DNA of 64,000 bases from Candidatus Melainabacteria bacterium (GTDB lineage Bacteria > Cyanobacteriota > Vampirovibrionia > Obscuribacterales > Obscuribacteraceae): positions 1-64,000 of the forward strand of contig DAIDIP010000013.1 in assembly GCA_027451745.1 (NCBI GenBank), in the 5' to 3' direction. The notes under the pieces are model-generated. The model saw only the letters and a list, made by a program, of their open reading frames with translations, was not told the origin of the DNA and did no database searches. This document shows positions 1 to 40,096 of the stretch, piece by piece. A program made the translations under genes and the position numbers. Numbering within the stretch: position 1 is the stretch's first letter; each line of letters starts with the position of its first letter.

Positions 1-3000
1 ACCAATAATGATAACAGCATTGGCAATGGTAATATCACTCTTAATGGAGCTATGCTTTCTACCGGCGGTGCCATTACCCTCACTGGCGGCGCCAATAGCA
101 CTCTCACTATTAATTCATCTGCTAGCATTGCTACTTCCGGCACTGGTACTGATGTCTCCCTTTCTGCTCAAACAGTCAATAATCAAAGCACAGTTACCTC
201 CAATCAAGACCTCATCATTGCTACCGATGACGTTAGCCACATACATACTATGACCTCCGGCAGAGATTTCGATATTTCTACTTTTACGCCTGGAGCCCCT
301 TTAACTATTAATTCTACTACGGGCTTAAATTTAACAGCCGTAAGAAATATCAATTTTGGCTACAGCAATGCTAGCCAAATTACCGTCACCAACGTTAATG
401 TCTTGGCTGGTAATAATATTTCTTTCAATGGTGGTACTAATTCTGTATCCGCTCCACTCGCTTCTATTTCTGGCACTGTAATTGGCGGCGGTGTTGGTAA
501 TTTAATTGGTAGTTCATTTAGTTTAAGTACTAATTCTGATCATATTACTTTGGGTGCCATGACTTCTCCTGGTAATATAACTGTCACCAATAACGATACC
601 AGTTTAGGTAATGGCAATGTCTCAGTTACTGCTAATATCTCTTCTTCTAGTGGCGCCATTAGCTTAACTACCGGCACTAACGGTACTCTTTCTATTCCAC
701 TTGGTGTAAGCGTTACTGCTTCTGGTACTGATGTTACTTTAGCTGGCAAAACTCTTAATAACGCGGGTTCTGTTTCTTCTAATCGTGACCTCATTATCGC
801 TGCTGATAGTGTAAGTATTTCCGGTACTTTTAGCAACACGCGGGACCTGGACATTTCCAGCTTTACTGCCGGCTCTCCTTTAAATATTACCTCCGCTTTT
901 GGCATCACTTTTGCTGCTACCCGTAACCTCAACTTTGGCTACAGCAATCCTTCTCCAATTACCGTATCTGGTGTACCACTTGTAGCAGGCAATAATATTT
1001 CTTTCAACGGTGGCACTTATTCGGTTTCAGTTTCTGCAACATCTGTTACGGGCACCGTTATTGGCGGTGGTACAAGTAACCTTATAGGTAGCTCTTTCAA
1101 TCTTAGCAATACTACCGGCAATATTTCACTAGGCGCCATGACTTCTACAGGCAATATTACCGTAACCAATGGCGACAATACTATAGGCAATGGTAATGTC
1201 GCTGTTAATTCTGGTATCGCTTCTACTGGCGGCGCCATTAGTTTAGCTACCGGCTCCAATGGCACTCTTTCCATTACTGGCACTGGCAGCTTAACTACTA
1301 GTGGCACTGGCACTGATATCTCTGTCACGGGTAAGACTTTGACTAATTCAGGCTCCATCACTTCCGCTCGTGATGTATATGTCGCTTCTGATGACCTTGG
1401 TCATACAGGCATCGCAAATATCGCTCGCGATTTATATATCTCTAGTTTCACACCTGGCGACCCTATCAATATAAACACCGATAGCTTAGCTTCTGTTTTA
1501 GGTCGTAATCTCATCATCGGTTACAATAGCCCTGCTCAAATTACTATCACTGGTACAGCTTTTGGCTCTGGCAACAATCTCTACTTAAATGGCGGTACTA
1601 ATGCTGTTTCAATTAACGTAGGACTCTTATCATTACCTGGCGCAATCATTGGTTATGGTCCTGGCAATTTAATCGGCAGCTCACTTACGCTCACTACTGC
1701 TACTGGCAATGTTCCACTAGGAGCCATGACTTCTACGGGTAACATTACTGTAACTACAAATGACACTACTGTAGGCAGTGGCAATATCTCTGTTTCTGGT
1801 GCTGTTTCTTCTAGCGGTGGTGCTATTAGTTTAACTGGCGGTACTCACGGCACACTTTCTCTAGCCGGTACTGGTAGCTTAACTACTAGCGGTACAGGTA
1901 CTGATATTACTTTATCCGCTCCAACTGTATCCAATTCTGGTTCTGTCTCTTCTAATCGTGATCTCATCCTCTCATTTAATAATTTAAATATTCCTGGCAC
2001 TTTGGCTTCTGCTCGAGATCTCGATATTTCTAGCTATACTTCTGGCGGACCTCTCGTTATTACTGATGGTACAGGACTTACTTTGTCCGCTGTTCGCAAT
2101 ATCAATTTCGGCTATAGTAATGCTTCGCAAATTACCATTAGCGACATAGCAATTAGCGCTGGAAATAATGTATCTTTCAATGGTGGTACAAATCCAGTTG
2201 CTGTTACTGCAACTTCCATCTCCGGCACAGTCTTAGGCTCTGGCGCTAGTAACTTAATTGGTAGCTCCTTTAACCTTTCCAGCGCCACCGGCAATATTAC
2301 TTTAGGAGCTATGACCTCTCCTGGTAATATTACTGTCGCAAATAACGATGCTGCTGTTGGCTCTGGTAGTGTCTCAGTTAATTCTGGTATCTCATCCACC
2401 GGCGGTGCTATTAGTCTTACAACTGGCGCAAATGGCACACTTACCATTGGCGGTACTGCTAGCTTAACTACAAGTGGCACGGGAACCGATATTAGTGTTT
2501 CCGGCAAAGCCGTTGATAATAATGGAGTTATTACTGCAAATCGCGATCTAATCGTTGCCTCCGACGATTTAAGTCATGCTGGTACTGCTAGCTCGGGCCG
2601 TGACCTCGATATCTCTAGCTTCACTCCTGGCGCTCCTCTCTTAATCAATAGCTCTAGCTTCTCCTCTGCTGTTGTTCGCAATATTAACCTTGGCTTTAAT
2701 AATCCTTCTCAAATTACCGTTACTGGACCTGCCGTTGCTTGCGGTGGATATGTCTCATTTAACGGTGGCACTAATCCTGTTTCTGTCACTATCACTTCTG
2801 GTTCTTTTACTGCTCCTATTATTGGTGGCGGTCCTGGCAATCTCATTGGTAGTTCTTTCACTTTCTCTACTACTTCCGGCAGCGTTACTTTGGGTGCCAT
2901 GACTTCTACTGGTAATATTACTGTCACTAATACTGACAGCAGTATTGGTAATGGTAATGTTAGTATCAGTGCTGCCGTCTCCTCTACCGGTGGCGCTATC

Positions 3001-6000
3001 AGTTTAACTACAGGCACCAATGGCACTCTCTCTATAGCCGGTACTGGCAGCTTAACTACTAGTGGTACAGGTACTGATATTTCTGTTATTGGTAAGAACT
3101 TAACTAACTCTGGAGTCGTTACTTCTGCCCGTGATGTATTTGTCTCTTCTAATGACCTCAGCGATGCTGGCGTAAATAATATTGCTCGTGACTTGTATAT
3201 CTCTAGCTTTACTGCTGGCGCTCCGCTTACAATCAATACTGCCGCTTTAGGTGGCTCTGTTGTAGGTCGCAATATTATTCTTGGCTACAATAATCCTTCT
3301 CAAATTACTGTTACCGGTGTAGCTTTTGGTTCTGGTAATGATCTCTATCTTAACGGCGGCACAAATCCAGTTTCTATTAATGTAGGCGCCTTAATAGTCC
3401 CTGGCTCAATCATTGGCTACGGCCCTGGCAATTTAGTCGGTAGCTCATTCACAATCACAACGACTACAGGCAATATTCCATTAGGTGCCATGACTTCTAC
3501 CGGCAATATTACTGCTACTACTAATGACACTGCTGTAGGTAGTGGTAATATTACTGTTTCTGAAGCTGTTGCTTCTTCTGGTGGGGCTATTACTTTAACC
3601 GGTGGCACTCATGGCACAATTTCCATCACTGGTACAGGTAGTTTAACTACCAGCGGTACAGGTACCGATATTTCTCTCACCGCTCCAACTTATAGCAATT
3701 CTGGTTCTGCCTCATCTAACCGTGACCTTATCCTTGCTGCAGATAGTATTTCTAGCACCGGTCCTATGACTACAACTAGAGACTTTGATATTTCTAGTTA
3801 TACTGCTGGTGCTACTCTATCCCTCAGTTCTGCTACTGGTATTACACTGAGTGCATCTCGCGATATTAACCTTGGCTACAATAACGCTTCTCAAATTACT
3901 ATCACTGGTTTAGCAATTAGTGCTGGTAATAATGTATCTTTCAATGGTGGTACTAATCCTGTTGCTGTTACTGCTACTTCTATCTCCGGTACAATCTTAG
4001 GTGCTGGTGTCGGTAACCTTATTGGCAGCTCTTTCAATCTTTCCAGCACAACAGGCAATATTACCCTAGGCGCTATGACTTCTACTGGTAATGTTACTGT
4101 CGCTAATAACGATGCTGCTGTAGGCTCTGGTAATGTCAGCATTAACTCGCCTATCTCTTCTACTGGTGGTGCTATCAGTTTAACCACTGGTGCAAATGGT
4201 ACTATAGCAATTAGTGCCACTGGCAGCTTAACTACATCTGGCACTGGTACTGATATTTCTGTTGCTGGTAAAAACTTAACTAATGACGGTTCTATTAACT
4301 CTGCCCGTGATGTTTACGTTTCCTCCAATGATCTAACCGCTACCGGCGCAGATCACATTACTCGTGACTTGTATATCTCTAGCTTTACTGCCGGTGCTCC
4401 TATCAATATAAATACTGATAGCTTAGCTTCAACTCTTGGTCGCAATTTAATTCTTGGTTACAATAATCCTTCTCAAATTACTGTTACCGGCACTGCTTTT
4501 GGCTCCGGTAATGATCTCTACTTTAACGGCGGCACTAATGCTGTTTCTATTAACGTCGGCTTCCTAATGGTTCCTGGCTCAATCATTGGCTATGGCCCGG
4601 GTAATTTAATTGGTAGTTCTCTCACAATTACCACCGCCACAGGCAATATTCCATTAGGCGCTATGACTTCTACTGGCAATATTACTGCCACTACAAATGA
4701 TGCTGCTGTAGGCAGCGGCAATGTCTCTGTTAGCGCTGCCATCTCTTCCACCGGTGGTGCTATTAGTTTAACTACTGGTACTAATGGTACTCTCGCTATC
4801 TCTGGCACTGGTAGCCTAACTACAAGCGGCTCAGGTACTGACATTTTTGTCATTGGTAAAAACTTAACCAATTCTGGCTTTGTTACTTCTGCCCGCGACG
4901 TATATGTCTCTTCCAACGACTTAAGTGATGCTGGCGTAAATAATATTACTCGCGATTTATATATCTCCAGCTTTACTGCCGGTGCTCCTCTTACAATCAA
5001 TACTGCTGCTTTAGGTGGCTCTACCGTGGGCCGTAACATTATCCTTGGTTACAATAATCCTTCTCAAATCACTGTCACCGGTGTAGCCTTTGGCTCCGGC
5101 AATAATCTCTATCTTAATGGCGGCACTAATCCTGTTTCTATTACTGTGGGTGCTTTAATAGTCCCAGGATCAATTATTGGCTATGGCCCTGGTAATGTAG
5201 TCGGCAGCTCATTCACAATCACAACGACTACAGGCAATATTCCATTAGGAGCCATGACCTCTACCGGTAATATTACTGTTACTACTAATGACACTGCTGT
5301 AGGCAGCGGTAATATCTCTATCTCTGGTGCAATTTCTTCTACCGGTGGTGCTATTACTTTAACTGGTGGCACTCATGGCATACTTTCCCTAAGTGGCACA
5401 GGTAGTTTATTAACTACTAGCGGTACAGGTACTGATATTTCTTTAACTGCTCCAACTTACACCAACGCCGGTTCTGTTTCTTCTAATCGTGATCTCATCC
5501 TTGCTTCAGATAGTATTTCTAGTACCGGCACTATGACCTCAAGTAGAGATTTGGATATTTCCAGTTATACTGCTGGGGCTGCTCTATCTCTCAACTCTGC
5601 TAACGGTATTACACTAAGTGCTGCTCGTGATATTAATCTTGGTTTCAACAATGCTTCTCAAATTACTGTCACAGGTTTAGCTATTACTGCTGGTAATCAT
5701 GTCTCTTTCAACGGTGGCACAAATTCAGTTGCTGTTACTGCCACTTCTGTTTCCGGTACTGTTATTGGTGGTGGACTTGGTAATTTAATTGGCAGTTCTT
5801 TCAACTTATCCAACACTACTGGTAATATTTCTTTGGGTGCTATGACCTCTACCGGCGGTATTATTGTTATTAATAATGACGCTTCTTTGGGCAATGGCAA
5901 CATTACTCTGGACGGAGCCATTTCTTCTACCGGTGGTGCTATCAGTTTAACGGCCGGTTCTAATAGCAATCTCACTATTAATCCTTCTGGCAGTATTGCT

Positions 6001-28144: not shown

Positions 28145-28801
28145 CTAAACACCAAAAGGAAATATTATCGGCACAAGTCTGCGCCACTTTAAGTGCTCAC
28201 CGTAAGTTTTGTAATCCGGTCCAAGATGCTCAATCAAGTTTTTCTCTTCGTATTTCGCTCGTTTCAACCATAGTGGAGCCACCATTATAATCGTGAATAA
28301 AGCACAATATATTGAGGTTGCTGCCAGCGATGCTCCAAACAAACATTGAATTATTCCAGAATAAATAGGATGCATCACATATTTAAAAAAGCCAGTATTA
28401 CGAACACCTTGTCCTTCTAATATTTCAGCATCTGTAGTGAAATATTCTCCCAAGCAATACCAGCCGCCCACCATAAAAATCATGCCACTAAATAAAATTG
28501 CCACTCCTAACCAAGAAATTACAGCAGCAATTCCTTGTGGTTCTCCGGTCGCCAACACAAATGACACTGGATATTGTGGACCAAAATTGGGACATATGCC
28601 TGTATAGCTCAGAAATGCCAATACAATTAACAATACATTCAACACGCTCATTAATTGGGGTAGGCGCTGAATAGAAAAATTGTTTTCATATTTTATGCCG
28701 GTGCCTCTGCGCTTCAAACCTTGAATAAAAATAGGAGTGGCAACAATAGCGCCCACCAATGTTATTGCGCATGTACAAATTGTTTGCAGATTCAAACACA
28801 T
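28145..28801 (-). CDS. Isoprenylcysteine methyltransferase-like (ICMT/PEMT family) membrane protein
   Basis: 218 residues from ATG 28801, supported by a GGAAAGGAA ribosome site; a TTG at 28816 is less likely. It has about five hydrophobic segments. The C-terminal half carries the ICMT/phospholipid methyltransferase signature: TGFFKYVMHPIYSGI, with the catalytic-region His-Pro and Tyr, then EEKNLIEHLGPDYKTY near the end. The family methylates isoprenylated or lipid substrates at the membrane using S-adenosylmethionine; substrate unknown. Alone on the minus strand, convergent with the Ppx gene. Confidence 0.8.
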   Translation of the reverse strand: MCLNLQTICTCAITLVGAIVATPIFIQGLKRRGTGIKYENNFSIQRLPQLMSVLNVLLIVLAFLSYTGICPNFGPQYPVSFVLATGEPQGIAAVISWLGVAILFSGMIFMVGGWYCLGEYFTTDAEILEGQGVRNTGFFKYVMHPIYSGIIQCLFGASLAATSIYCALFTIIMVAPLWLKRAKYEEKNLIEHLGPDYKTYGEHLKWRRLVPIIFPFGV

Positions 28802-29109
28802 AAAATTCCTTTCCAAATACCTAAAACTTTGTTCTCCGTTCTTATGGAATACTGAACGGCAAAATCTCTATCCAACGATTTACTAATTGTTTTAGCAGGA
28901 AGTCGCTCCTTATATGCAAAAAATAAGCCAATTGAAAAACAGTATTGAGTGACAAAAAGATAACCTTTAAACAAAGTCGACAATAAACGTTGTAAAGTAG
29001 AAGGCTGTAATCTATAGTTTTCCTTTGCTGACCTAAAATAGCGATTGCTCAGCTAGAATAGTCTTGATTTCAGATTAATCCATTATCATCAATTTAGAGA
29101 GTAATAGTT
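28802..29109. other. Divergent intergenic region (308 bp)
   Basis: Lies between the ICMT-like gene and the GH3 cluster, so it should hold promoters for both. The only clear element is the minus-strand GGAAAGGAA ribosome site beside 28801. I could not settle on -35/-10 pairs. A 63-codon minus-strand frame here starts with TTG and has no ribosome site. Confidence 0.5.
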
Positions 29110-30057
29110 TTGACCGAGCACCAAACCAGTCTACCCCAATCATTACCTGCTATTGAAATTCAATCTGCTAAAGACCGGAAAACGCCAACTATAGAATGGC
29201 TGAAGTCGTCTGATGGGGCAAGATTAGGCTGCCGGGTCTGGATTGGCAGTGAAGATGCGCCTGTAGTTATCCATTTGCATGGTATAGAAGGACATAGTCA
29301 ATGGTTTGAAAATACTGCTAGTTCTCTCAATGAAAATGGCATAACAGTATATGCCCCGGATCGACGCGGTTCGGGAATGAACGGCAATTTACGAGGACAT
29401 TTGGATAATTACAACATTTTATTATCTGACCTAGAGTACCAAATCCAGCATATACGACGTCAGCATAGAGGACAGCGCGTAATTCTTATTGCCAATTGTT
29501 GGTCAGCCAAAATAGCCACTATATTCGCTCAATCAAATTATCAAAACACCGACCATACTCTAATACCGCCGCTGGCTGGGCTCATTCTTACCGGTCCAGC
29601 CATTTACACTAAGGCGGATTTTCCTTTAATAACCAAATTACAGATTGCTTTCAGCTGGCTATTAGGTAGCCATGCTCTTCAAAAATATTGGTCTATACCT
29701 CTTAAAACTAGCATGTTCACTAATGATCCTGACTTTATAAACTTTATAGACAATGACCCTTTGCATTTGACTAAAGCCACAACATCCTTTTTTGTCCAGA
29801 CTTTTCTTCTTTCTCGAAAGGCGCAACAAGCGGCAAAATTTATCAAAATGCCTCTTTTAATTCTCCAGGGAGAAGATGATCAAATTGTTGATGTGACAAA
29901 GTTAGAAAACTGGTTTGAACAAGTCTCCTCAACTGATAAAGCGCTTCAAGTTTTTCCAGGAGCCGCTCATAGCTTAGACTTCGATAGAACTTGGTTCAAA
30001 GAGTACACACATACACTCTGCAATTGGATCCTCAAAAGAGGACAATTAGGAATATGA
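29110..30057 (+). CDS. Alpha/beta hydrolase, monoacylglycerol lipase-like
   Basis: 315 residues, TTG start. The pattern is the alpha/beta-hydrolase fold of lysophospholipases: an oxyanion-region HLHGIEGHSQWF, a YAPDRRGSGMN segment, and C-terminal GEDDQIVD (acid) with AAHSLDFD (His). The nucleophile elbow is ANCWSAK, so the usual GxSxG is not kept, although a Ser is in place. That may alter activity. No signal peptide, hence probably cytosolic. First gene of the GH3 cluster; overlaps the enolase-superfamily gene by four bases. Confidence 0.8.
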   Translation: MTEHQTSLPQSLPAIEIQSAKDRKTPTIEWLKSSDGARLGCRVWIGSEDAPVVIHLHGIEGHSQWFENTASSLNENGITVYAPDRRGSGMNGNLRGHLDNYNILLSDLEYQIQHIRRQHRGQRVILIANCWSAKIATIFAQSNYQNTDHTLIPPLAGLILTGPAIYTKADFPLITKLQIAFSWLLGSHALQKYWSIPLKTSMFTNDPDFINFIDNDPLHLTKATTSFFVQTFLLSRKAQQAAKFIKMPLLILQGEDDQIVDVTKLENWFEQVSSTDKALQVFPGAAHSLDFDRTWFKEYTHTLCNWILKRGQLGI

Positions 30058-31286
30058 AAATACGGGCCTTACACCTTTATATAGTTGATCTTCCTTTCCG
30101 CTTTAGTTTCAACCATAGCTTGGCTAAACGATCATCTTCCACAAATCTTATTGTTAAAGCCATAGTCGAAAAAAATGGTCTATTCTTCGAAGGTTTTGGA
30201 GAAGGGATACCCAGAGAATATGTAACAGGTGAAACAATTGAACAAGCAACTGTTTTGCTTCAGGAAAAATATTTTCCCTCTGTAATAGATCAGTATTTCT
30301 CCAACGTCTATGAACTAGTTGACTTTCTTGCTGAGCAATTTAATAACTTCGGACTAACTCACAAACCCAGTGGTGCTTCTTGGTGTGCTCTTGAACTTGC
30401 TTTGCTTGACGCCGCCTGTAAGTCCGATAATATTTCACTCAAACAATTACTTGATGTTGATAGCAAGGTTGACGCTCCAGATAGTATTAAATATGGTGCT
30501 GTAGCGTCCTTAACTAACAGGAAAAGTTTGATAGCTCTACTGACATTGTTCAAGCTTTATGGCTTTAGTACAGTCAAACTCAAAATTGGCAAAGACTTAC
30601 AAAGCGACATCGAAAGAATTGCATTAGCAAGAAAAATCCTAGGCAACGATGTCATTATTAGAGTAGACGCTAATTGTGCTTGGTCAGTAGCTCAAACTAT
30701 AGAATTTGCCCAAAGTGCCCAAGCTTATAATATTGCTTCTATAGAGCAGCCTGTTAAAGCTGATAATATTGCTGCTATTGTTCAGCTAAGCTCAACTATT
30801 CCTCAGCCAATTGTTCTTGATGAATCTCTATGCACAGTTAATCAAGCCTTAGACTTTGTAAATAAGCAAGTTAAAGCCGACTTTAATATTCGCATTTCAA
30901 AAATGGGCGGCATTATTGCCGCTAACAAGATACGAAATATTGCTAAACAGGCTGGTGTTGCTTGTCACTTAGGTGCCCAAGTAGGCGAAAGCGGTATTCT
31001 TACCATGGCTGGTCGAATATTTGCCATTAGCAGAGGTCCATTTGTTAATCATGAAGGGGCAGCAAATAGTTTCTTGTTAAAACATGACCTTACTCGGCAA
31101 AACTTAACTTTCGGTTATGGCGGAGAAGGAAAGTTGCCTGATAAAGACAAAACAAGAACTGGATTAGGCATCACTCTGAATGAAAGAAACTTTCGCAATC
31201 AAATTACAAAAGAGTTTTTCTTAAAATCAAATGAGCTTCGCTCAAATAACACCACAGAGCTGATAGTAGCAGGCGAAAAATTATGA
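30054..31286 (+). CDS. Enolase-superfamily enzyme (dipeptide epimerase/N-acylamino acid racemase/OSBS group)
   Basis: 410 residues from ATG 30054, whose ATGA overlaps the previous stop; a longer frame starts at 29991 but would overlap the hydrolase by 67 bases. Catalytic and metal residues of the muconate-lactonising subgroup are all present: K-x-K at Lys175/Lys177, and the metal ligands Asp205 (RVDAN), Glu231 (IEQP) and Asp256 (LDESL). A further Lys283 (ISKMGG) matches the second base. The substrate could be a dipeptide (Ala-Glu), an N-acylamino acid or O-succinylbenzoate (MenC). The neighbouring GH3 gene makes an N-acylamino acid epimerase attractive, but this is inference. Confidence 0.85.
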   Translation: MKIRALHLYIVDLPFRFSFNHSLAKRSSSTNLIVKAIVEKNGLFFEGFGEGIPREYVTGETIEQATVLLQEKYFPSVIDQYFSNVYELVDFLAEQFNNFGLTHKPSGASWCALELALLDAACKSDNISLKQLLDVDSKVDAPDSIKYGAVASLTNRKSLIALLTLFKLYGFSTVKLKIGKDLQSDIERIALARKILGNDVIIRVDANCAWSVAQTIEFAQSAQAYNIASIEQPVKADNIAAIVQLSSTIPQPIVLDESLCTVNQALDFVNKQVKADFNIRISKMGGIIAANKIRNIAKQAGVACHLGAQVGESGILTMAGRIFAISRGPFVNHEGAANSFLLKHDLTRQNLTFGYGGEGKLPDKDKTRTGLGITLNERNFRNQITKEFFLKSNELRSNNTTELIVAGEKL

Positions 31287-32968
31287 TTAACTGGCGAAAA
31301 ACTGACATAGCAATCGGGCAAATGTTACGTGAGAGTACTCACGTAACACATTTTTATAAAGCCTGTTTGAATCCTGCTCTTACTCAAAAGCAAAAACTTC
31401 TACAGATTATAAAAGCCAATACAAATGCTGCATTTGGCCGTGCCCATCATTTTGATCGAATATCGAGCGTTAAGGACTATCAGAAATATGTCCCACTAGC
31501 TACTTATGAAACTCTTAAGCCCTACATTGATGCAGCAATGGCCGGAGAAAAAAAACAATTAACGGAAGATGAACCATTTATGTTTGCCACTACAAGTGGC
31601 ACTACAGATAAACCTAAATATATTCCTATAAACAAGAGTCATTTAGCTGACTACACACATGCTTTCCAAGTCCACAACTATCATTTAGTCAAAGATTTTT
31701 GGCATGCTACTGATGGACAATTTTTCATTATTAGCAGCAATGATCAAGAAGGAAAAGTTGACTCCGGACTTCCTTATGGAGCGGTCTCTGGACTTTTAAA
31801 CAAAAGACAGTCACCTTTGGTACGCAGACACTTCGCCGTACCATATGAAGTTTGCAAAATTAAAAACGTCGAAATGAAATATTATTTGATGCTGCGAACG
31901 GCTTTAGCACAAAATGTTACTGCCTTTATGGCGTGCAATCCTTCCAGTTTAATTTTGCTTGCCGATCAATTGAAGGAACATTGTACTGAGCTCATAGCCG
32001 ACATTTTTGATGGTACTATAAGAAAGGCTTATTCTCCTCCCAAAGAATGGCTGGGTGCCTTTGCCAAATTTTTAAAACCAGATCGTGAGCGAGCTGGGAT
32101 TTTAGAAAAAACACTTGAAAAAGATTCAGTACTTCTGCCAAAAACCGTCTGGCCACAATCATCTGTTATTTCCTGCTGGAAAGGTGGTCCTATGTCTTTC
32201 TATTTGGAAAAACTCCCTGAATATTACGGTGATATTCCTGTAAGAGATTTTGGCTATATGGCTAGCGAAGGACGCGGCAGTATACCACTATCTGATCAAG
32301 GAGCCGGTGGAGTGTTAGCTCTAACTAGCCACTTTTTTGAATTTGTTGCTGAAGATGACATCGATTCAACAAACCCTCAATTTTTGCTAGCTGATGAATT
32401 ACAACTACATGGGCGATACTATATTTACTTCACAACCAATGCCGGGCTCTATCGCTACAATATAAATGACTTAATTGAAGTAACAGACTTCCATGGTAAA
32501 ACTCCTATAATTCAATTTATTCGCAAAGGTATGGGTATTAGCTCCATCACCGGAGAAAAGATCACTGAAGAACAAGTCTTAACTGCCTTTAGACAAGTGA
32601 CGCGACAGTTAAATCTTGATTGTATTAAACATTTTACCGCCGAAGTGAAGTTGTGCTTACCGCCATACTATGTATGTTTTGTTGAGCTCGATGAACCTTT
32701 GCCTCAATCAGTTCAAGAAGAATTTGTGCGTTTATTTGATCAGTCTTTATGCTCTCAGAACCCTGAATACGAAGAAAAGCGCACTAGTCATAGACTGGCG
32801 ATGCCCAGAATGGAAAGTCTTCCAGCAGGCACGTATAAAAATCTAAGACAGCAAAGAGTTACAGAAGGAGCACCTGAAGCACAAGTAAAAATCCCTCTAT
32901 TAAGTACACCTTCTTCCTTTTCGGGTCGATTAGCACTTCTGAAGAAAAAAGAGGTAATTGCAAGTTGA
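31283..32968 (+). CDS. GH3-family acyl-adenylating enzyme (auxin-responsive GH3 type)
   Basis: 561 residues with the GH3 layout. The N-terminal opening includes TNAAFGRAHHFD and DYQKYVPLATYE; the ATP-binding A3 motif TTSGTTDKPK is at about residues 103-112; then a middle part with YMASEGRGSIP; and a C-terminal domain with GEKITEEQV. Plant GH3 enzymes adenylate an acyl acid and transfer it to an amino-acid amine; bacterial members have mostly unknown substrates. Overlaps both neighbours by four bases, so it is co-translated with the epimerase and the SDR. Complete relative to plant GH3 (~600 residues). No pathway symbol can be assigned. Confidence 0.9.
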   Translation: MINWRKTDIAIGQMLRESTHVTHFYKACLNPALTQKQKLLQIIKANTNAAFGRAHHFDRISSVKDYQKYVPLATYETLKPYIDAAMAGEKKQLTEDEPFMFATTSGTTDKPKYIPINKSHLADYTHAFQVHNYHLVKDFWHATDGQFFIISSNDQEGKVDSGLPYGAVSGLLNKRQSPLVRRHFAVPYEVCKIKNVEMKYYLMLRTALAQNVTAFMACNPSSLILLADQLKEHCTELIADIFDGTIRKAYSPPKEWLGAFAKFLKPDRERAGILEKTLEKDSVLLPKTVWPQSSVISCWKGGPMSFYLEKLPEYYGDIPVRDFGYMASEGRGSIPLSDQGAGGVLALTSHFFEFVAEDDIDSTNPQFLLADELQLHGRYYIYFTTNAGLYRYNINDLIEVTDFHGKTPIIQFIRKGMGISSITGEKITEEQVLTAFRQVTRQLNLDCIKHFTAEVKLCLPPYYVCFVELDEPLPQSVQEEFVRLFDQSLCSQNPEYEEKRTSHRLAMPRMESLPAGTYKNLRQQRVTEGAPEAQVKIPLLSTPSSFSGRLALLKKKEVIAS

Positions 32969-34020
32969 AAAATCTAAAAGTCGCTATTACAGGAGCCACA
33001 GGGCTGGTTGGCAGTCGCTTATGCGAATATCTTGCTCAAAAAGGCTATCAAATTAGAGCCTTGGTACGTACTTTAGAAAATACTGCTCCGTTCAATAAAA
33101 CTTGGTCAAAACTTAATATTGAAATTCAACAAACCAATATTTTAAATCGAGCCGAGCTAGAACAATCTTTAAAAGACATTGATATCGTTATCCATGCCGC
33201 TGGCATTGTTGATCCTTATGCTGCACCTGAAGAAATCACAGCCGTAAATGTTATTGGCACTCAATCAGCTCTAGAGACTGCAATTCAAACAGGTGCAAAG
33301 CAATTTATTTTTTTAAGCAGTTTATCTGTCATAACTGGCAATGATGATCAATATAATACAGCCGAAGATGCACCAAGAATTCTATGTGGCGAATCTTATG
33401 CAGACTCAAAAGTACACGCTGAACAAATTGCTACTAACGATGTATATAAAAACAAAATAGCAATAACAATAATGAGACCAGGTTTTATATATGGACCCAG
33501 AGAACGCGCTTGGTTACCGAATCTAATAAATGCCATTGCTAGCAGAAGAGCTATCCTGGTTGATGGCGGCAGCAAAGAAACAAATGTAATTTATATAGAT
33601 AACCTCTGCCAGGCAATAGAATCTTCAATGTTAAATGAAAAAGCTTATGGCCAAATTTACAATCTTACCGATGGTCAGCACATCACTAAAAAACAACTAT
33701 TTGATACTGTTAGTGACAATATGGGGTTGCCCCGAGTAGAAAAAAACATGCCTAGCTGGCTTATAAAACCAATATTCAGCCTTCTGTCATCAATAATCTC
33801 TCGCATGCCGCTGGAAAAGAAGAAAAAACTTGCTCGTTTTTCAAAAGCAGCTTATCGTCTCATAGGTATCAATCAAAGTTATTCGATTGCTAAAGCTCAA
33901 AAGGAACTTAACTATACAAACCTAATTCCTTTTACAGAAGGTATGGCCAAAACTCTTGAATCCTTTAAAGAACAAGCAGCAGCTTTTCCTGTTAAACAAA
34001 CTGTTAAAGCAGGGAGATAA
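32965..34020 (+). CDS. Extended SDR: NAD-dependent epimerase/dehydratase-like
   Basis: 351 residues, TTG start overlapping the GH3 stop codon (TTGA). N-terminal Rossmann motif AITGATGLVGSRL, then VIHAAGIVDPY. The active-site segment has SSLSVI (Ser) and, further on, ESYADSKVHAE, giving the YxxxK pair. MRPGFIYGPRE follows. Such enzymes oxidise, reduce or epimerise a hydroxyl or keto carbon on a nucleotide sugar, sterol or acyl substrate; substrate unknown. Central gene of the cluster. Confidence 0.85.
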   Translation: MKNLKVAITGATGLVGSRLCEYLAQKGYQIRALVRTLENTAPFNKTWSKLNIEIQQTNILNRAELEQSLKDIDIVIHAAGIVDPYAAPEEITAVNVIGTQSALETAIQTGAKQFIFLSSLSVITGNDDQYNTAEDAPRILCGESYADSKVHAEQIATNDVYKNKIAITIMRPGFIYGPRERAWLPNLINAIASRRAILVDGGSKETNVIYIDNLCQAIESSMLNEKAYGQIYNLTDGQHITKKQLFDTVSDNMGLPRVEKNMPSWLIKPIFSLLSSIISRMPLEKKKKLARFSKAAYRLIGINQSYSIAKAQKELNYTNLIPFTEGMAKTLESFKEQAAAFPVKQTVKAGR

Positions 34021-34022
34021 CA

Positions 34023-34328
34023 TTGAACAATAATTTCCTGACTAACGTTAAAGATTTCATTGTCGATTATTGTCAACGTCATGCTCATCCAGTTAATGCG
34101 TTATTGCATATTGTCGGCGTACCTGCTGCATTTTTTGGTTTCTATAAATTTTTCACAGGCAATTTTGCTTATGGTCTGTCTTTGATTTTTTTGGGCTATC
34201 TATTTCAATACTTAGGACATAAAGCCCAAGGCAATGAAGTAGGAGAAGTAACTTTGATAAAAAAATGCTACAAAGCCTTAAAGAACAAAAATAGTAATAA
34301 AACTGATCCCACATCAATAAATACCTAA
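34023..34328 (+). CDS. Small membrane protein, DUF962/Mpo1-like
   Basis: 101 residues, TTG start two bases after the SDR stop. Two hydrophobic segments (about 28-45 and 48-65) surround a motif DYCQRHAHPVNALLHIVGVP, which follows the Mpo1/DUF962 pattern Y-x3-H-x4-N-x3-H-x2-G-x-P. A second His motif, QYLGHKAQGN, matches the family's QxxGHxxxE region except that Glu is not obvious. Yeast Mpo1 is an Fe(II)-dependent dioxygenase acting on 2-hydroxy fatty acids. If this member is active, the cluster would process long-chain hydroxy-acyl groups. Function here is inference. Confidence 0.7.
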   Translation: MNNNFLTNVKDFIVDYCQRHAHPVNALLHIVGVPAAFFGFYKFFTGNFAYGLSLIFLGYLFQYLGHKAQGNEVGEVTLIKKCYKALKNKNSNKTDPTSINT

Positions 34329-34350
34329 GAATCTTCGGAATAAGTCACCT

Positions 34351-35307
34351 ATGAATCTCCAAACAACACAAGTTACTGTCCTCTTAATAGATGGTGCTAC
34401 AGGCTATATCGGTTCTCATTTTATTGCCTCTGCACAAAAAACCAAAACTGATTTACTCAGCATCCGATGTCTGGCACGAAAAACCGCCAACACATCCGAC
34501 ATCTCTTTTTTAAAAGGTACTGGTGTTCTTGTGTTTCAGGCAGACCTAAAGGACGACTCAGTCAACGATGCATTTTCACAAGTGGATGTCGCTTACCATC
34601 TGATCGGCAGTATTGCCCCTCGTCGCGGTGAAACTTCAGAATCCTTACACATTGATCAAACAAAACATTTTGTAGAATCTTGTCTAAAAGCCAAAGTGAA
34701 AAAGATAATCATGGTTAGCGCCTGCGGAGCAGCACCAGATGCCATTAGCGAATATCATCGTACAAAATGGCAAGCTGAACAAATAATAGAACGAAGCGGT
34801 ATTCCATCAATAATCTTGCGTCCCTCCCTTGTATTAGGTAAAGGAATTGGACAAAGAAACAGTAAGCTAGTCAATCGTATCGAAGAATTGATTCGCAATA
34901 AAAAAATTGTTCCTTTAATCGGCGGTGGCAAGAATAAAGTTCAACCGCTTTATATAAATGACTTAGTAGAAGCAATGCTTGCTTCGGCACAGTTAACAGC
35001 CCTGCCTAACAAGTTAACCATTTTAGAATTGGGCGGACCTGATATTTTAACTCTGAAAGACTTGGCACAAAACATGATGATTAAGATGGAAACAACAAGA
35101 CCCATTTTAGATCTACCAATCCCCGCAGCTAACGCTATCGCTCAGTTAGCCGAACTAACTCAAGAAGTACCTATAGTAAGCAGAGATCAAATAAAGCTTA
35201 GCCAGAAAGACAATGTATGCCAAAATAACTACTTGAGTAAATTACTAAAAAATCCTCCAACATCGCTGAATGAAGCTCTCGACTCTTATCAATGGACTAA
35301 GAATTAA
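34351..35307 (+). CDS. Extended SDR, NDUFA9-like NAD(P)-binding protein
   Basis: 318 residues; ATG with GGAATAAG ribosome site. N-terminal LIDGATGYIGSHF Rossmann motif, then AYHLIGSIAPRRGE, IMVSACGAAPD, and YHRTKWQAEQII, where Y-x3-K is kept (Tyr-His-Arg-Thr-Lys). LRPSLVLG follows. The pattern is of the NDUFA9/complex I-associated and NmrA-like extended SDRs, which bind NAD(P)H and often act on acyl or lipid-linked substrates. Third dehydrogenase-like gene candidate of the cluster; substrate unknown. Confidence 0.82.
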   Translation: MNLQTTQVTVLLIDGATGYIGSHFIASAQKTKTDLLSIRCLARKTANTSDISFLKGTGVLVFQADLKDDSVNDAFSQVDVAYHLIGSIAPRRGETSESLHIDQTKHFVESCLKAKVKKIIMVSACGAAPDAISEYHRTKWQAEQIIERSGIPSIILRPSLVLGKGIGQRNSKLVNRIEELIRNKKIVPLIGGGKNKVQPLYINDLVEAMLASAQLTALPNKLTILELGGPDILTLKDLAQNMMIKMETTRPILDLPIPAANAIAQLAELTQEVPIVSRDQIKLSQKDNVCQNNYLSKLLKNPPTSLNEALDSYQWTKN

Positions 35308-35337
35308 AAAATCTTCGTCAGTCCACTAAATTGTTTT

Positions 35338-36345
35338 ATGAACGATATAAATACATCTCGAAAAATATTAGTTACAGGTGCAAGTGGTTTTATTGGACAG
35401 AGTCTAGTGCCAAAACTTGTAAAACTCGGGCACAAGGTTCGCACATTTGGTCGCAGCCCTAATTTACCGTCTAGTTTAAGTCAATTAAACCTGGAGCATT
35501 ATAGCGGTGATATAACTAACTTTGATCAACTGCTAGAGGCAATGCAAGATAGAGATCTTGTTTATCATTTAGCAGGACTTGTATCGTATAAAAAACGAGA
35601 TATTGAAAAGATACATGCGATCAATGTCATAGGTACAGGCAATGTTATGAAAGCGAGCCTAGTCGCAAATGTTAAAAGAGTTATACACACAAGCTCAGTT
35701 GCGGCCTTTGGTATTCCTGAGCACGGAGAAATCGGCTCTGAGGATATTGAATACAATCTAGAAGGAAAAGGACTTAGCTATTGCGATACCAAGCATTTAG
35801 GTGAAAAAGAAGTTCTCAGATATGTATCTTCAGGTTTGTCTGCCATAATTCTGAATCCAGGAATTATATTTGGCGAAGGTGATACGCACCCTCATCATCA
35901 CGCTATTTTTGCAGCCATGTCTAAAGGATGGATGATCGGAGTCCCCTCTGGCGGCGTTACTTTCTCCGATATTAATGATGTTGTACAAGCACACATAAAT
36001 TGCATAGATAAAGGCACTATAGGAGCTCGCTATGCTGTAGTTAGTGCAAACCTTTCTTTTAAAGAAGCCGCTCTTATTTTTGCTCAACTCAATGATTTGC
36101 GTGGTCCTTTATTCGAAATCCCCAATAATTTTTTGACAAGATTGGGTGCCATCGTAGAAAACATTTGCCCTTTATTTGGCATAGATCCTCCTCTGACGCG
36201 TCAGGTCGCCTGGCTTAGTCAACAAAAAATATTTTTTAGCAGTGCCAAAGCCATTAATGAGATAGGTTTCCAACCAACACCCTTTATTGATACAGTGCGA
36301 CGAACATCAGATTATTATTTGCACAAAAATAAAAACCAGACATAA
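35338..36345 (+). CDS. Extended SDR, dihydroflavonol reductase/3-beta-HSD-like
   Basis: 335 residues. ILVTGASGFIGQSLVPKL forms the NAD-binding motif; VYHLAGLVSYKKRD, HTSSVAAFG (catalytic Ser region), SYCDTKHLGEKEV (YxxxK) and LNPGIIFGEGDTHPHH follow. It most resembles DFR/hopanoid-associated-epimerase-like SDRs, with a C-terminal substrate-binding part. Last gene of the cluster, 30 bases after the preceding SDR; no clear ribosome site. Ends six bases from a convergent gene, so any terminator must lie inside coding sequence. Confidence 0.83.
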   Translation: MNDINTSRKILVTGASGFIGQSLVPKLVKLGHKVRTFGRSPNLPSSLSQLNLEHYSGDITNFDQLLEAMQDRDLVYHLAGLVSYKKRDIEKIHAINVIGTGNVMKASLVANVKRVIHTSSVAAFGIPEHGEIGSEDIEYNLEGKGLSYCDTKHLGEKEVLRYVSSGLSAIILNPGIIFGEGDTHPHHHAIFAAMSKGWMIGVPSGGVTFSDINDVVQAHINCIDKGTIGARYAVVSANLSFKEAALIFAQLNDLRGPLFEIPNNFLTRLGAIVENICPLFGIDPPLTRQVAWLSQQKIFFSSAKAINEIGFQPTPFIDTVRRTSDYYLHKNKNQT

Positions 36346-36351
36346 AGCACT

Positions 36352-37095
36352 CTAAGTTCTTGGCGGCTTAACGGCTCGATTGAGCTGCTTATTTAAATAC
36401 TTCATTTCGTCATAGGCTTGTTTACTAGCCTGTTCATCCCCTAATTCACGATAGGTTACATACTTTAGCAATAGAAGATTTGAAATTGTTGCCGTACTAG
36501 GATCTTTTTGATCGTGCCACATTGCTTGTGCTTTGTTTATGTGTCCAAGAGATTTTTCAAAATATAATTTGCGTTTTTTCAAATCTTTTTCGCTATCTCC
36601 CCTAAGATAGCTTATCATTGCCAAATTTATTTCATCTCTCGTCAGTCTTGGATCTTGAGCCTCTAGATTCCTCTCGTCCATTCTTTGGATATCTTGATAG
36701 TACTTCTGTGCTTCTTGCAATTTATTTAAATCTCGACAGACTCCTGCTATCAGTAACGTTGTATTGATCAATTTTTGATTGTAGCCGCTATTCAGCTTCT
36801 CTCGCCGACTTTTGATTTTGAGCAACAATTTCAAAGCCTCAGGGACTCTAAAACTTGCCCATAAATTTTTTGCCAGAGTTTCGTCGTAGTCTAGCTTTAC
36901 GCTTTCGGCAACAGGCACTTTCGAAAGTTTTTCTTGCTGTTTGCGAATTGCAAATTCTTGCGATGCCATCAAGTCATCATAATAGTGAGCTACTGAATCA
37001 TTTAAAACTGACAGCTTGCGCGGCATGGTAGCAATAGACAGCCAAAGGAGAACAGCTAATGCAAAACCGATTTTTATCCAATCTCGTCTATTCAT
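36352..37095 (-). CDS. Membrane-anchored helical (TPR-like) protein
   Basis: 247 residues. A single N-terminal TM anchor (about 8-24) is followed by helical repeats resembling TPRs (LNKLQEAQKYYQDIQRMDE and similar). Last gene of a three-gene unit with the HTTM protein; its start ATGA overlaps that stop. No enzymatic motif seen; likely a periplasmic or membrane-side scaffold for the neighbouring membrane protein (inference). Confidence 0.65.
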   Translation of the reverse strand: MNRRDWIKIGFALAVLLWLSIATMPRKLSVLNDSVAHYYDDLMASQEFAIRKQQEKLSKVPVAESVKLDYDETLAKNLWASFRVPEALKLLLKIKSRREKLNSGYNQKLINTTLLIAGVCRDLNKLQEAQKYYQDIQRMDERNLEAQDPRLTRDEINLAMISYLRGDSEKDLKKRKLYFEKSLGHINKAQAMWHDQKDPSTATISNLLLLKYVTYRELGDEQASKQAYDEMKYLNKQLNRAVKPPRT

Positions 37096-38081
37096 GTTCG
37101 TTCTCTTTGACTAAAACCAATAGTAAGGCGTGATTTTATTTGTTCAAAAAGGATCAAGAACCACCGTCCTAATTTTTTAAGATCATTTGGATCTACGAAC
37201 AAAATATACATAGACATAAAAGTGAATTCAAAAACAGGTATATTGAGCAACCAGTCAATACCTAAATGCAAAAGAATTCCAGCCAGAATTACCCAATACC
37301 TTAACTCTTTAACCCAGATTAGAGTGCCCAATGCCAATTCAATAAATACTGTGCCAAAACAAAGGGCATATAAAGGTATTCGGTGGTCAAGCAATGTATG
37401 TTCTAAAAAGTCAGGCAAAGGAAATTTGGCAAAGTCCATTAGCCTGGTAGCTAGATAAACTCCGTTGCCCGAAAACCAAAATATTGAATTTATCTTTAGG
37501 ATTCCGGTTGAAAAATAAGCAATCGCCATTTGCATTTGCAGCATTCTTTGCGCCCAGGGAGCGCATATTTCGGGATTAAAAAATGGCTTACACCAATTCA
37601 CGCCGCGATTTTTAATAAAAGTATCCAGCGACAACGCATCACCAGCATGGCTAAACAATAATAGAAAAAGAGCAATCCTTTGCATGTTGTCGCCAGCATT
37701 GCATAGAAAAGGACATTGCCTATCTAAAGAGCAAATAAGAAGATAAACAAGAAAGATGCTCAGTCTTGTATAAAAACCTAAAATCATCATGATTATGCAT
37801 ATGGCAGTAAAAGCAAGAATTGCTATATGCCAACTATCTTGAGCCGGTACAAACTCAAAAATATTTGCACCTAAATCTTTTCTCCACCAATACGCAATAT
37901 AATCATTGTAAGGAATAATTGGATTCGTCCCAAAAAAGACTCCAAAATCATACCAATATTGCGTCCCTATATGAGTAAGCAGCACCAAGCCATATAAGAT
38001 ACGGAATACTGATACTGCAATGGGCGATTCCGGCGCAAACCAAAACTGTTGCCAAATTTTCGCTAGATCACGGAGGCTCAT
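37092..38081 (-). CDS. HTTM-domain (vitamin K-dependent carboxylase-like) membrane protein
   Basis: 329 residues with about eight hydrophobic segments. The pattern is of the HTTM family: SVFRILYGLVLLTHIG near the start, an NMQRIALFLLLFSHAGDALSLD segment with the typical loop after it, W(A)QRMLQMQMAIAYFSTGILK in the middle, and IELALG...LLHLGIDWLL near the end. HTTM proteins are related to gamma-glutamyl carboxylase, but most bacterial members have unknown roles. Overlaps both neighbours by four bases, so the three genes form one operon. Confidence 0.85.
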   Translation of the reverse strand: MSLRDLAKIWQQFWFAPESPIAVSVFRILYGLVLLTHIGTQYWYDFGVFFGTNPIIPYNDYIAYWWRKDLGANIFEFVPAQDSWHIAILAFTAICIIMMILGFYTRLSIFLVYLLICSLDRQCPFLCNAGDNMQRIALFLLLFSHAGDALSLDTFIKNRGVNWCKPFFNPEICAPWAQRMLQMQMAIAYFSTGILKINSIFWFSGNGVYLATRLMDFAKFPLPDFLEHTLLDHRIPLYALCFGTVFIELALGTLIWVKELRYWVILAGILLHLGIDWLLNIPVFEFTFMSMYILFVDPNDLKKLGRWFLILFEQIKSRLTIGFSQRERT

Positions 38082-38659
38082 TTAATATCCTCAACTCTTA
38101 CCTGATAAACAAAAAACGTATTCCGCTTGGTCCCAGTAAGTGGATGATTATGCGGTATGAGTTTGGGTAATCGTCCTATGTCGTCAGCGTTATAACACAA
38201 ACTAACTTGTGTAGGTTCATTATTTGGATCAGCATAAGCCCGAGCAATATAACGTGCGATACTTGGACGGAAAACACTAAAATCACTCCAAGGCATGATG
38301 TCATAAAAATGTTTACGCACCCTTTCCCGCATTAGAGCCTGAAATTGACTCATTTTATCCGGACGCGGAAATTCGTAATATGCAGTTGAGCCATCCTGAA
38401 AAGTTATTACAGCGTAAGGATGGAAGCAAAAATCTCGGGGATTGGGACAAAACATTCGCCATGATTGGTCCACACCAAAAAAAAGTTCAAGTCCTCGCGT
38501 ATATTGATGGACAAATTGTCTAAGAGGACAGTCAGCGGTGATGGCAATTCCAATAATAAAAAAATAGACAATAATAAAAGTACTAATTAAAATCTGGTCT
38601 CGTTTGCTCATCGATTGAGTGTTCATTATTGAACCGTTAGCTACCAAATCAAGAATCAT
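38078..38659 (-). CDS. HTTM-associated membrane-anchored protein
   Basis: 193 residues. A single TM segment (about residues 24-44) is followed by a presumably periplasmic domain with WRMFCPNPRD and FCFHPYAVITF, a Trp-x-Met-Phe-x-Pro motif seen in proteins encoded next to HTTM genes. Overlaps the HTTM gene by four bases. A later ATG at 38626 is an alternative start. No function known; coupled expression argues for a complex with the HTTM protein. Confidence 0.7.
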   Translation of the reverse strand: MILDLVANGSIMNTQSMSKRDQILISTFIIVYFFIIGIAITADCPLRQFVHQYTRGLELFFGVDQSWRMFCPNPRDFCFHPYAVITFQDGSTAYYEFPRPDKMSQFQALMRERVRKHFYDIMPWSDFSVFRPSIARYIARAYADPNNEPTQVSLCYNADDIGRLPKLIPHNHPLTGTKRNTFFVYQVRVEDIK

Positions 38660-38679
38660 AGCGATTCATCTAACGCCCT

Positions 38680-39186
38680 CTACATGCCCCATATACGATA
38701 AAAATATTCATGGCTAGTTTTATTAATCAATAATGCTTCATTAACAATCTTGCCTACCGTATGTTCAGTACGCACCAGATAATCATAAGTATTAACAGGC
38801 TGTTGAAGTGACCTGTCTCCAGGATATTTTTCTGCAAAACCACTGCGTCCAACCTCTGATATATAAGGTTTAAAATCTGTTGCATTCTTCAAATGAATTT
38901 CAGAATTGCTCTTAAATCTTATCCAGGAATCAAAACCCAAAAGATTTTTGCTATCTCCGCTTATCATTGTTACCGACTCAACAGGCTCAACGAAAGCTTG
39001 CTCAAAAAGCTTTTGCGGTGAGAATTCCATAGTTTTAATCATCTTAAAATATGAGTAAACGCCACCGATAACAAATATAATTATAAGAGTAAAAATAATA
39101 AGCAGCTTAAGCTGGCTGGCACTTTTGGCATTATGCACAGGCAAAGTCGAAATATTATTCACTGACTTTTTACCACGTTCTTGCAT
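38680..39186 (-). CDS. Single-pass membrane protein, function unknown
   Basis: Chosen start ATG 39186 (168 residues) has a GGAGAGG ribosome site; a longer frame from 39273 would overlap the MqnD-like gene and has no such site. One TM segment lies at about residues 28-48 (LLIIFTLIIIFVIGGVYSYF), with a C-terminal, probably extracytoplasmic domain of about 115 residues containing EKYPGDRSLQQPVNTYDY. Not recognised. Same strand as, and 20 bases upstream of, the HTTM triad; it may belong to that unit. Confidence 0.6.
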   Translation of the reverse strand: MQERGKKSVNNISTLPVHNAKSASQLKLLIIFTLIIIFVIGGVYSYFKMIKTMEFSPQKLFEQAFVEPVESVTMISGDSKNLLGFDSWIRFKSNSEIHLKNATDFKPYISEVGRSGFAEKYPGDRSLQQPVNTYDYLVRTEHTVGKIVNEALLINKTSHEYFYRIWGM

Positions 39187-39250
39187 ATCGATAAAGACCT
39201 CTCCTATAGCTAGTAAATTGAACTTAGACTTATTGGCGCAACTATAAAAA

Positions 39251-40096
39251 TTATGACACGAATTCAGTAACAAATTGGTCTTCTAATAAATGAGCTTCTT
39301 TGGCCAAGTTAAAAAGTTGCTTGACAGCCAATTGTCCAGCTTCCCCACAATCAACACTCAAATCGTTTACATACATACTTATATATTCATCGACTATTTT
39401 TTCAGACATGTCGCGTGCAAAGCCAAAAGCATATTTCATTGCTGCTGCTCGATTCTTTAATCCATGGACAACAGAATCTCTAAAAATATTTGTCAATTCA
39501 ATAATCCGATCGTGACCAAGATCGCGCTTTATCGCATTGCCTCCTAGCGGTAATGGCAATTTGGTCTTCTGTGACCACCATACCCCAAGATCCACTACTT
39601 TTTGCAGCCCAAATTGCTCGTGAATAAGTTGCCCTTCGTGAATTATTAGCCCCGCATCAACAAATCGATTTTGTACAGCCGAAATGATCTGTTCAAATGG
39701 CATAACAATTACTTTTACTTGCGGACAATATAAACGCAATAACAAATATGCTGTTGTCATATACCCGGGAATAGCTACTTTAACTGAATCAAGTTGAGGT
39801 TCTGCTTCACCTTTGCGGCTAACGACCATAGGTCCATATTCCTGCCCAAAACTTGCACCACAGGGCATGAGTAAATAATCTTTCTTTATTTCAGGATAAG
39901 CAGCAAAAGAAATTGCCGTAATTTCGTATTTACCCTCTTTTGCCTCCTCATTCAGTGATTGAATGTCTTTCATTACCTGCTTAAAAATAAAATTGCCCGT
40001 AGGTACCGCACCACAAGCAATACCATAATACATAAAAGCATCATCACTATCAGGGCTATGAGCACAATTTATTACTATTTTTTCTAAATCTTTCAT
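39251..40096 (-). CDS. MqnD-like 1,4-dihydroxy-6-naphthoate synthase/menaquinone family protein
   Basis: 281 residues of the periplasmic-binding-protein fold without a signal peptide. The N-terminal HSPDSDDAFMYYGIA matches the MqnD/MqnA start (S-P-D-x-D-D-x-F), followed by DIQSLNEEA, ISFAAYPEI and LPCGASFGQEYGPMVV, the pattern of the MqnD branch that has this spelling. MqnD turns cyclic dehypoxanthinyl futalosine into 1,4-dihydroxy-6-naphthoate in the futalosine route to menaquinone. Other members of the family have unassigned functions, so the symbol is withheld. No other mqn gene is in the window. ATG with AGAAGGAG. Confidence 0.75.
   Translation of the reverse strand: MKDLEKIVINCAHSPDSDDAFMYYGIACGAVPTGNFIFKQVMKDIQSLNEEAKEGKYEITAISFAAYPEIKKDYLLMPCGASFGQEYGPMVVSRKGEAEPQLDSVKVAIPGYMTTAYLLLRLYCPQVKVIVMPFEQIISAVQNRFVDAGLIIHEGQLIHEQFGLQKVVDLGVWWSQKTKLPLPLGGNAIKRDLGHDRIIELTNIFRDSVVHGLKNRAAAMKYAFGFARDMSEKIVDEYISMYVNDLSVDCGEAGQLAVKQLFNLAKEAHLLEDQFVTEFVS

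Follow-up and report, generated by a model that had tools for sequence, protein, structure and literature searches.

In the planctomycete Singulisphaera acidiphila, ornithine-lipid synthesis is encoded by an operon for OlsH (a GH3 enzyme), OlsG (a methyltransferase) and OlsI (an alpha/beta-hydrolase acyltransferase), as shown in vitro and by knockout (PMC12493201). OlsH uses ATP to join ornithine to a free fatty acid, giving N-acyl ornithine; OlsI adds the second acyl chain, and the methyltransferase finishes the lipid (PMC12493201). This is the one pathway worked out for bacterial GH3 enzymes, which number in the thousands; according to the same authors, GH3 homologues outside planctomycetes may take other amino acids (PMC12493201). 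Here we describe a seven-gene cluster with a GH3 gene from a Candidatus Melainabacteria bacterium (Cyanobacteriota; Vampirovibrionia; Obscuribacterales; Obscuribacteraceae). It lies in a stretch of 64,000 nucleotides (the window), which is positions 1 to 64,000 of contig DAIDIP010000013.1, contig 13 of a 3.0-Mb draft genome (GCA_027451745.1). Judged from sequence, the cluster is best read as encoding GH3-dependent amino-lipid biosynthesis in a new form that includes an epimerase.

The cluster comprises seven plus-strand open reading frames (ORFs) at 29110–36345, in sequence hyd, epi, gh3, sdr1, mpo, sdr2 and sdr3. The first three encode an alpha/beta-hydrolase of the monoglyceride-lipase family (hyd, 29110..30057; PF12146, Hydrolase_4, 165 bits), a racemase/epimerase of the MLE subgroup of the enolase superfamily (epi, 30054..31286; PF13378, MR_MLE_C, 130 bits) and a GH3 acyl-acid amido synthetase (gh3, 31283..32968; PF03321, 224 bits, plus GH3_M and GH3_C). 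They are followed by an extended short-chain dehydrogenase/reductase (SDR) of 3beta-HSD/OleD-like type (sdr1, 32965..34020; PF01370, 112 bits, and PF01073, 104 bits), an Mpo1-like (DUF962) protein, putatively an Fe dioxygenase of 2-hydroxy acyl groups (mpo, 34023..34328; PF06127, 41.8 bits, cut-off 24), an extended/atypical SDR of NmrA/NAD(P)-binding type (sdr2, 34351..35307; PF01370, 62 bits, and PF13460, 55 bits) and an extended, HpnA-like SDR (sdr3, 35338..36345; PF01370, 102 bits; TIGR03466 HpnA, 200 bits, cut-off 368). Read directly from the sequence, the first junctions are overlaps of four bases, ATGA at 30054-30057 (hyd/epi), ATGA at 31283-31286 (epi/gh3) and TTGA at 32965-32968 (gh3/sdr1); the later ones are gaps of 2, 22 and 30 bases (sdr1/mpo, mpo/sdr2 and sdr2/sdr3). 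A sequence-only reading of this DNA had listed the same genes, positions, overlaps and gaps, all of which the ORFs and junctions reproduce, and its family assignments agree with Pfam for all seven genes. The block from hyd to sdr3 is probably one transcription unit. Scans for promoters and terminators gave background levels. Just inside gh3, at 31323-31348, there is a perfect hairpin of 11 base pairs (TGTTACGTGAG AGTA CTCACGTAACA), then ATTTTTAT; it is not conserved in the six relatives compared.

The arrangement is conserved throughout the family. The whole-cluster comparison covered the phylum Cyanobacteriota, and a search of 60 relatives found the cluster-type GH3 in 34 of 35 same-family relatives and in the window's own genome. 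Gene order and strand are the same at all 34 GH3-cluster loci, which represent 24 genera of the family, so the arrangement is not due to chance. All seven genes are present at 29 of these loci and four others are cut by contig ends; in one genome (G017), the cluster is present without mpo and sdr3. A second contig collection was scanned with family-specific patterns, whose matches are loci of this lineage alone; all seven genes occur there at 38 of 45 loci, largely of the same species. Mean identity to the window genes ranges from 41% (sdr2) to 59% (mpo), and is 57% for GH3 with six distant paralogue loci included. The cluster-type epimerase and gh3 are present or absent together, since a family genome that is 98% complete (G008) lacks both and has a generic, distant epimerase homologue only. 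The sequence-only reading had allowed that relatives might lack the epimerase or the SDRs next to GH3; in the family, both do adjoin it. Three records titled Actinobacteria, Proteobacteria and Chloroflexi (L067, L072 and L087) also carry the cluster, and the titles of L072 and L087 look wrong, the DNA apparently being of the window's family.

A further gene can be added to those of the sequence-only reading. On the minus strand at 28145..28816, divergent from hyd, lies a gene for an ICMT/PEMT-type membrane methyltransferase (PF04140, 40.4 bits, and PF04191, 33.5 bits, both above cut-off). It is the divergent neighbour at 31 of 34 family loci and at 41 of 45 loci in the contig collection, and belongs to the cluster neighbourhood; it is associated with the cluster, though unlikely to be transcribed with it. 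In most relatives, the divergent arm also holds genes for a TENA/haem-oxygenase-fold protein, a weakly DUF1571-like protein and a Polyketide_cyc2/START-like protein (e.g., L024:7521-8246, L025:13074-13805). The window's genus has lost these three genes from the locus. The haem-oxygenase-fold gene was considered as a catalyst and rejected: the family copies have not retained the putative metal-ligand region of the Sericytochromatia proteins, and the window's genus has no copy at the locus. The one Haem_oxygenas_2 (PF14518) protein of the window's genome is encoded elsewhere (L139:5676-7675), beside genes that by eye look like folK and folP, which is also the setting of CADD-type para-aminobenzoate synthases. 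On the other side, the gene downstream of sdr3 differs between genomes, so the right-hand boundary of the cluster is sharp. In the window, this side is occupied by a convergent minus-strand string (36352-39273) encoding a tetratricopeptide-repeat (TPR) protein, an HTTM-domain membrane protein (PF05090) and two proteins without family assignment, and the string is retained in the same genus only.

The GH3 protein has its three nucleotide-binding motifs intact (TSGTT..K, Y..SE and YRY..D; 11 of 12 key positions identical in 33/33 sequences, the twelfth in 32/33). It would activate a fatty acid as its acyl-AMP and then amidate an amino acid with it. The solved structures related to it are plant amido synthetases. 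A tree of GH3 sequences separates the cluster GH3s from a set of paralogues, and does not resolve the point at which the Sericytochromatia GH3s join. These paralogues (~41% identical) lie outside the cluster at L057, on contig 7 of the window's own genome, and at L058-L062; next to them, in divergent orientation, is a gene that by eye looks like one for a glycosyltransferase, and a proline-dehydrogenase-like gene is often close by. As in the OlsH-OlsG-OlsI operon, a GH3 with these motifs and a protein of the alpha/beta-hydrolase superfamily are encoded in one gene string, and a methyltransferase gene is present. Unlike that operon, the window adds an enolase-superfamily epimerase, three extended SDRs and an Mpo1-like protein, and its methyltransferase is divergent and of ICMT/PEMT type.

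We therefore favor, tentatively and at a little under an even chance, a biosynthetic unit for an N-acyl-amino-acid ("amino") lipid that includes an epimerisation step, because genes for a GH3, an alpha/beta-hydrolase-fold protein with a nucleophilic Cys and a membrane methyltransferase stand side by side and because OlsB/OlsF-type acyltransferases were not found in relatives. The OlsB-type N-acyltransferase domain (PF13444), used in the OlsB and OlsF pathways, was matched in 0 of 36 relatives, the window's genome included, with a positive control. After amidation by GH3, the enolase-superfamily enzyme would use two lysines for a 1,1-proton transfer that inverts the alpha-carbon of the N-acyl amino acid, and the Cys enzyme would transfer an acyl group through an acyl-S-enzyme, taking the place of OlsI in the planctomycete pathway. 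The three SDRs could set the keto and hydroxy groups of the chain, the Mpo1-like protein could oxidise 2-hydroxy acyl groups, and methylation of the product may fall to the divergent ICMT/PEMT protein. What the sequences show is a conserved gene order, family membership and intact active sites; substrate, amino acid, chain, product and order of steps are inferred.

The hydrolase departs from monoglyceride lipases in its active site. Its model (pLDDT, a per-residue confidence score, 91.4) has human monoglyceride lipase (MGL) as its nearest entry in the PDB, and resembles the human and mycobacterial enzymes (3jw8 and 6eic) in fold and in the positions of the catalytic Asp and His. However, identity to these lipases is ~21%, and Cys (GNCWGA) stands where they have Ser (GHSMGG), so that hyd lacks the GxSxG Ser nucleophile by which monoglyceride-lipase-type serine hydrolases are recognized. 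C130, aligned to the Ser of human MGL and placed between a strand (124-129) and a helix (132-139), is invariant in 33 sequences together with W131, D257 and H287. The nucleophile is Cys in 33/33 family sequences and in both sister-family sequences examined, and the sister-family hydrolase matches Acyl_transf_2 and LuxD. A Cys nucleophile would fit hydrolysis no better than acyl transfer, and the removal of an acyl group, which the sequence-only reading had assigned to this enzyme, is not its obvious role.

The epi product has the full set of MLE-subgroup lysines and metal ligands, i.e., the strand-2 KxK, the D/E/D ligands and the strand-6 Lys, and K175, K177, D205, E231, D256 and K283 are invariant in 33 sequences. 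Foldseek ranked 2zc8 (N-acylamino-acid racemase) and 2p88 (N-succinyl-Arg/Lys racemase) first and second for its AlphaFold model (pLDDT 89.6), in line with the earlier link to N-acylamino acid racemases. It is like these two enzymes in fold (TM score, a measure of structural similarity, 0.80-0.83 by query), KxK, ligands and strand-6 Lys, and unlike them in identity (~23-28%), clade, an insertion in strand 7 (one extra residue, GxQVGE, in all cluster epimerases), the NxEG of strand 8 and its GH3 and SDR neighbours. Dipeptide epimerases are almost as close in fold. The L-Ala-D/L-Glu dipeptide epimerases share the subgroup and catalytic lysines with epi, but the strand-8 DxD is absent (NxE in the family; the residues of Escherichia coli YcjG aligned to NxEG are DLDGP) and the clade is separate. 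In the tree, the epimerases of the family and of Sericytochromatia form their own clade (support 100/99), apart from plasmid-borne dipeptide epimerases, MenC and muconate cycloisomerases; trees with all references were unstable owing to long branches, and the tree reported leaves out long-branched references, including the divergent YcjG. The grouping with MenC or Ala-Glu dipeptide epimerases that had been named beforehand as telling against the proposal did not appear. A housekeeping dipeptide epimerase was rejected on the clade and the strand-8 motif. A second, generic enolase-superfamily homologue lies outside the cluster in most family genomes, and is missing from three family genomes besides those of the window and its genus mate.

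These two enzymes could also serve turnover rather than synthesis, with hyd and epi degrading or salvaging acylated amino acids or cell-wall peptides and GH3 as a detoxifying conjugase. The hyd-epi pairing, found in every complete locus, would fit such a role, and related plasmid dipeptide epimerases adjoin genes for an M20 peptidase or an amidohydrolase. The block itself includes no amidase, peptidase or transporter, the replacement of Ser by Cys is universal in the family, and most family genomes have their generic enolase-superfamily homologue elsewhere; we consider turnover improbable.

The order hydrolase, enolase-superfamily enzyme and acyl-adenylating enzyme also recalls MenH-MenC-MenE, in which the same trio of chemistries is encoded by adjacent genes. 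By similar logic, the cluster might make a small specialised metabolite, e.g., a quinone-like or aromatic acid amide, through elimination by the hydrolase, dehydration or cycloisomerisation by the enolase-superfamily enzyme, a GH3 acyl-adenylate, and tailoring by the SDRs and an oxygenase. The highest-scoring NCBIfam model for epi is indeed a muconate cycloisomerase family (123 bits, below the cut-off of 335), and haem-oxygenase-fold proteins and methyltransferases are encoded nearby in relatives. However, epi falls outside the MenC and muconate clades, GH3 is not MenE, and a cluster kept throughout a family at ~50% identity would more typically serve to make a membrane or housekeeping product. 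No menD was found above cut-off in 36 relatives and the window encodes a PF02621 menaquinone-biosynthesis protein, which together point to the futalosine route and make a menaquinone-type reading unlikely. A specialised metabolite is, in our view, distinctly unlikely, and MenH-MenC-MenE as the literal pathway was rejected on the absence of menD from these relatives and the position of epi outside the MenC clade. The PF02621 gene (39251-40096, minus strand) is of the futalosine-route type, and no NCBIfam model names its product.

In the amino-lipid reading, the genes following gh3 would provide chemistry on the acyl chain. In the mpo product, N25xxxH29, Q62xxxH66, E72 and E75 are invariant in 30 sequences, and we take these His, Asn, Gln and Glu residues to be the iron-site motif of Mpo1. 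It shares the NxxxH, QxxxH and E residues and a PF06127 match above cut-off with the Mpo1/DUF962 2-hydroxy fatty acid dioxygenases; the window protein is ~100 amino acids long, and a role for bacterial members is not established in the papers found. All SDR copies keep YxxxK (sdr1 34/34, sdr2 33/33 and sdr3 29/29), and sdr1 scores 119 and 111 bits with OleD-type NCBIfam models, far under their cut-offs.

Part of the block persists without GH3 outside the family. The epimerase also occurs in a sister family (three genomes) that belongs to the same order. The two loci examined there (L134 and L136) keep hyd-epi-sdr1-mpo-sdr2 in the arrangement of the window's family, but GH3 is missing from its place between epi and sdr1, as is sdr3 from the end of the string. 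One sister-family genome (G036, 94% complete) has no GH3 anywhere, the other two have one on another contig, and the one placed in the tree groups with the family's GH3 paralogue. These loci show that "GH3-centred", as the cluster was first called, overstates the place of GH3. They also count in favor of a hydroxy-fatty-acid (alpha-oxidation) unit, in which epi would racemise 2-hydroxy fatty acids, Mpo1 would oxidatively cleave one enantiomer, the SDRs would interconvert keto and hydroxy acids, hyd would release or transfer acyl groups, and GH3 would have the accessory task of recycling or conjugating the acid. The invariant Mpo1 motif residues agree with this, and racemisation of 2-hydroxy acids is known enolase-superfamily chemistry. 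Lys/Lys and Lys/His strand features distinguish the MLE/N-acylamino-acid racemase (NAAAR) subgroup from the mandelate-racemase subgroup, however, and epi, whose lysines are on strands 2 and 6, belongs with the former. The G017 cluster lacks mpo, and the adjacency of epimerase and GH3 in two classes would be left unexplained; we judge an alpha-oxidation unit unlikely.

The second class with the epimerase is probably Sericytochromatia, where it was found in 3 of 18 genomes. The gene order is haem-oxygenase-fold protein, epi, GH3 and ICMT-like in one case (G060, L113) and haem-oxygenase-fold protein, then epi, in another (L114). In the third (G081, L118), epi overlaps the gene for a fused protein (1848-4490, minus strand) with an OlsE-like first part and a GH3 second part. 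The first part matches NF052566 (ornithine-lipid hydroxylase OlsE; 182 bits, cut-off 475) and FA_hydroxylase (PF04116; 101 bits). Since this fusion adjoins epi, it ties the GH3/epimerase pair to amino lipids independently. A gene for an LCM-family methyltransferase lies divergently there. Among 292 genomes sampled across the phylum, strong epi matches were found in the window's genome and two Sericytochromatia only; plasmid homologues of epi and GH3 are too distant to reveal the cluster. It is parsimonious to suppose that the epi-GH3 pair is old and that GH3 was lost from the sister-family cluster, or there may have been two separate gains of the pairing. A fully specified, fourth amino-lipid route would have GH3 build the N-acyl amino acid, a dedicated racemase epimerise it, so that membrane lipids carry a D-configured or racemic amino-acid headgroup, and the Cys enzyme add an O-acyl chain; such a route, as a trait shared across Obscuribacterales and with roots in Sericytochromatia, appears possible but fairly unlikely as a whole.

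Several points weigh against amino-lipid synthesis. The best NCBIfam model for gh3 is OlsH (NF052613), but at 106.4 bits it is far below the cut-off of 620, and the window protein is not filed as OlsH for that reason. Within the family there are few matches to OlsE, all of them weak, and none was found in the window's genome. By superfamily and gene context, the hyd product is a candidate counterpart of OlsI. Judging from the modelled structure, the enolase-superfamily fold is too permissive to fix the substrate of epi. Since the sister family keeps its core of five genes without GH3, these may work on a substrate, such as 2-hydroxy fatty acids, that GH3 does not supply. Lipid data on these bacteria were not found in open PubMed Central papers.

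The pathway proposed in the sequence-only reading thus stands in part: the cluster is real and conserved and its lipid component is strengthened by OlsH/OlsI (PMC12493201), while the chemistry and the order of steps are unproven. No description of the cluster was found in open PubMed Central papers, so it may still be called undescribed. Some of its novelty is removed, as amino-lipid synthesis by a GH3 and an alpha/beta-hydrolase has been published (OlsH/OlsI; PMC12493201).

No paper joining Melainabacteria and ornithine lipids was found among open PubMed Central papers. A racemase in an amino-lipid pathway would, to our knowledge, be new. The pairing of GH3 and epimerase in two classes, once with an OlsE-like fusion, offers a handle on the products of other bacterial GH3s. 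If the amino-lipid reading is true, the cluster would also supply a marker lipid for the non-photosynthetic relatives of cyanobacteria, a group in which lipids seem to have received little study.

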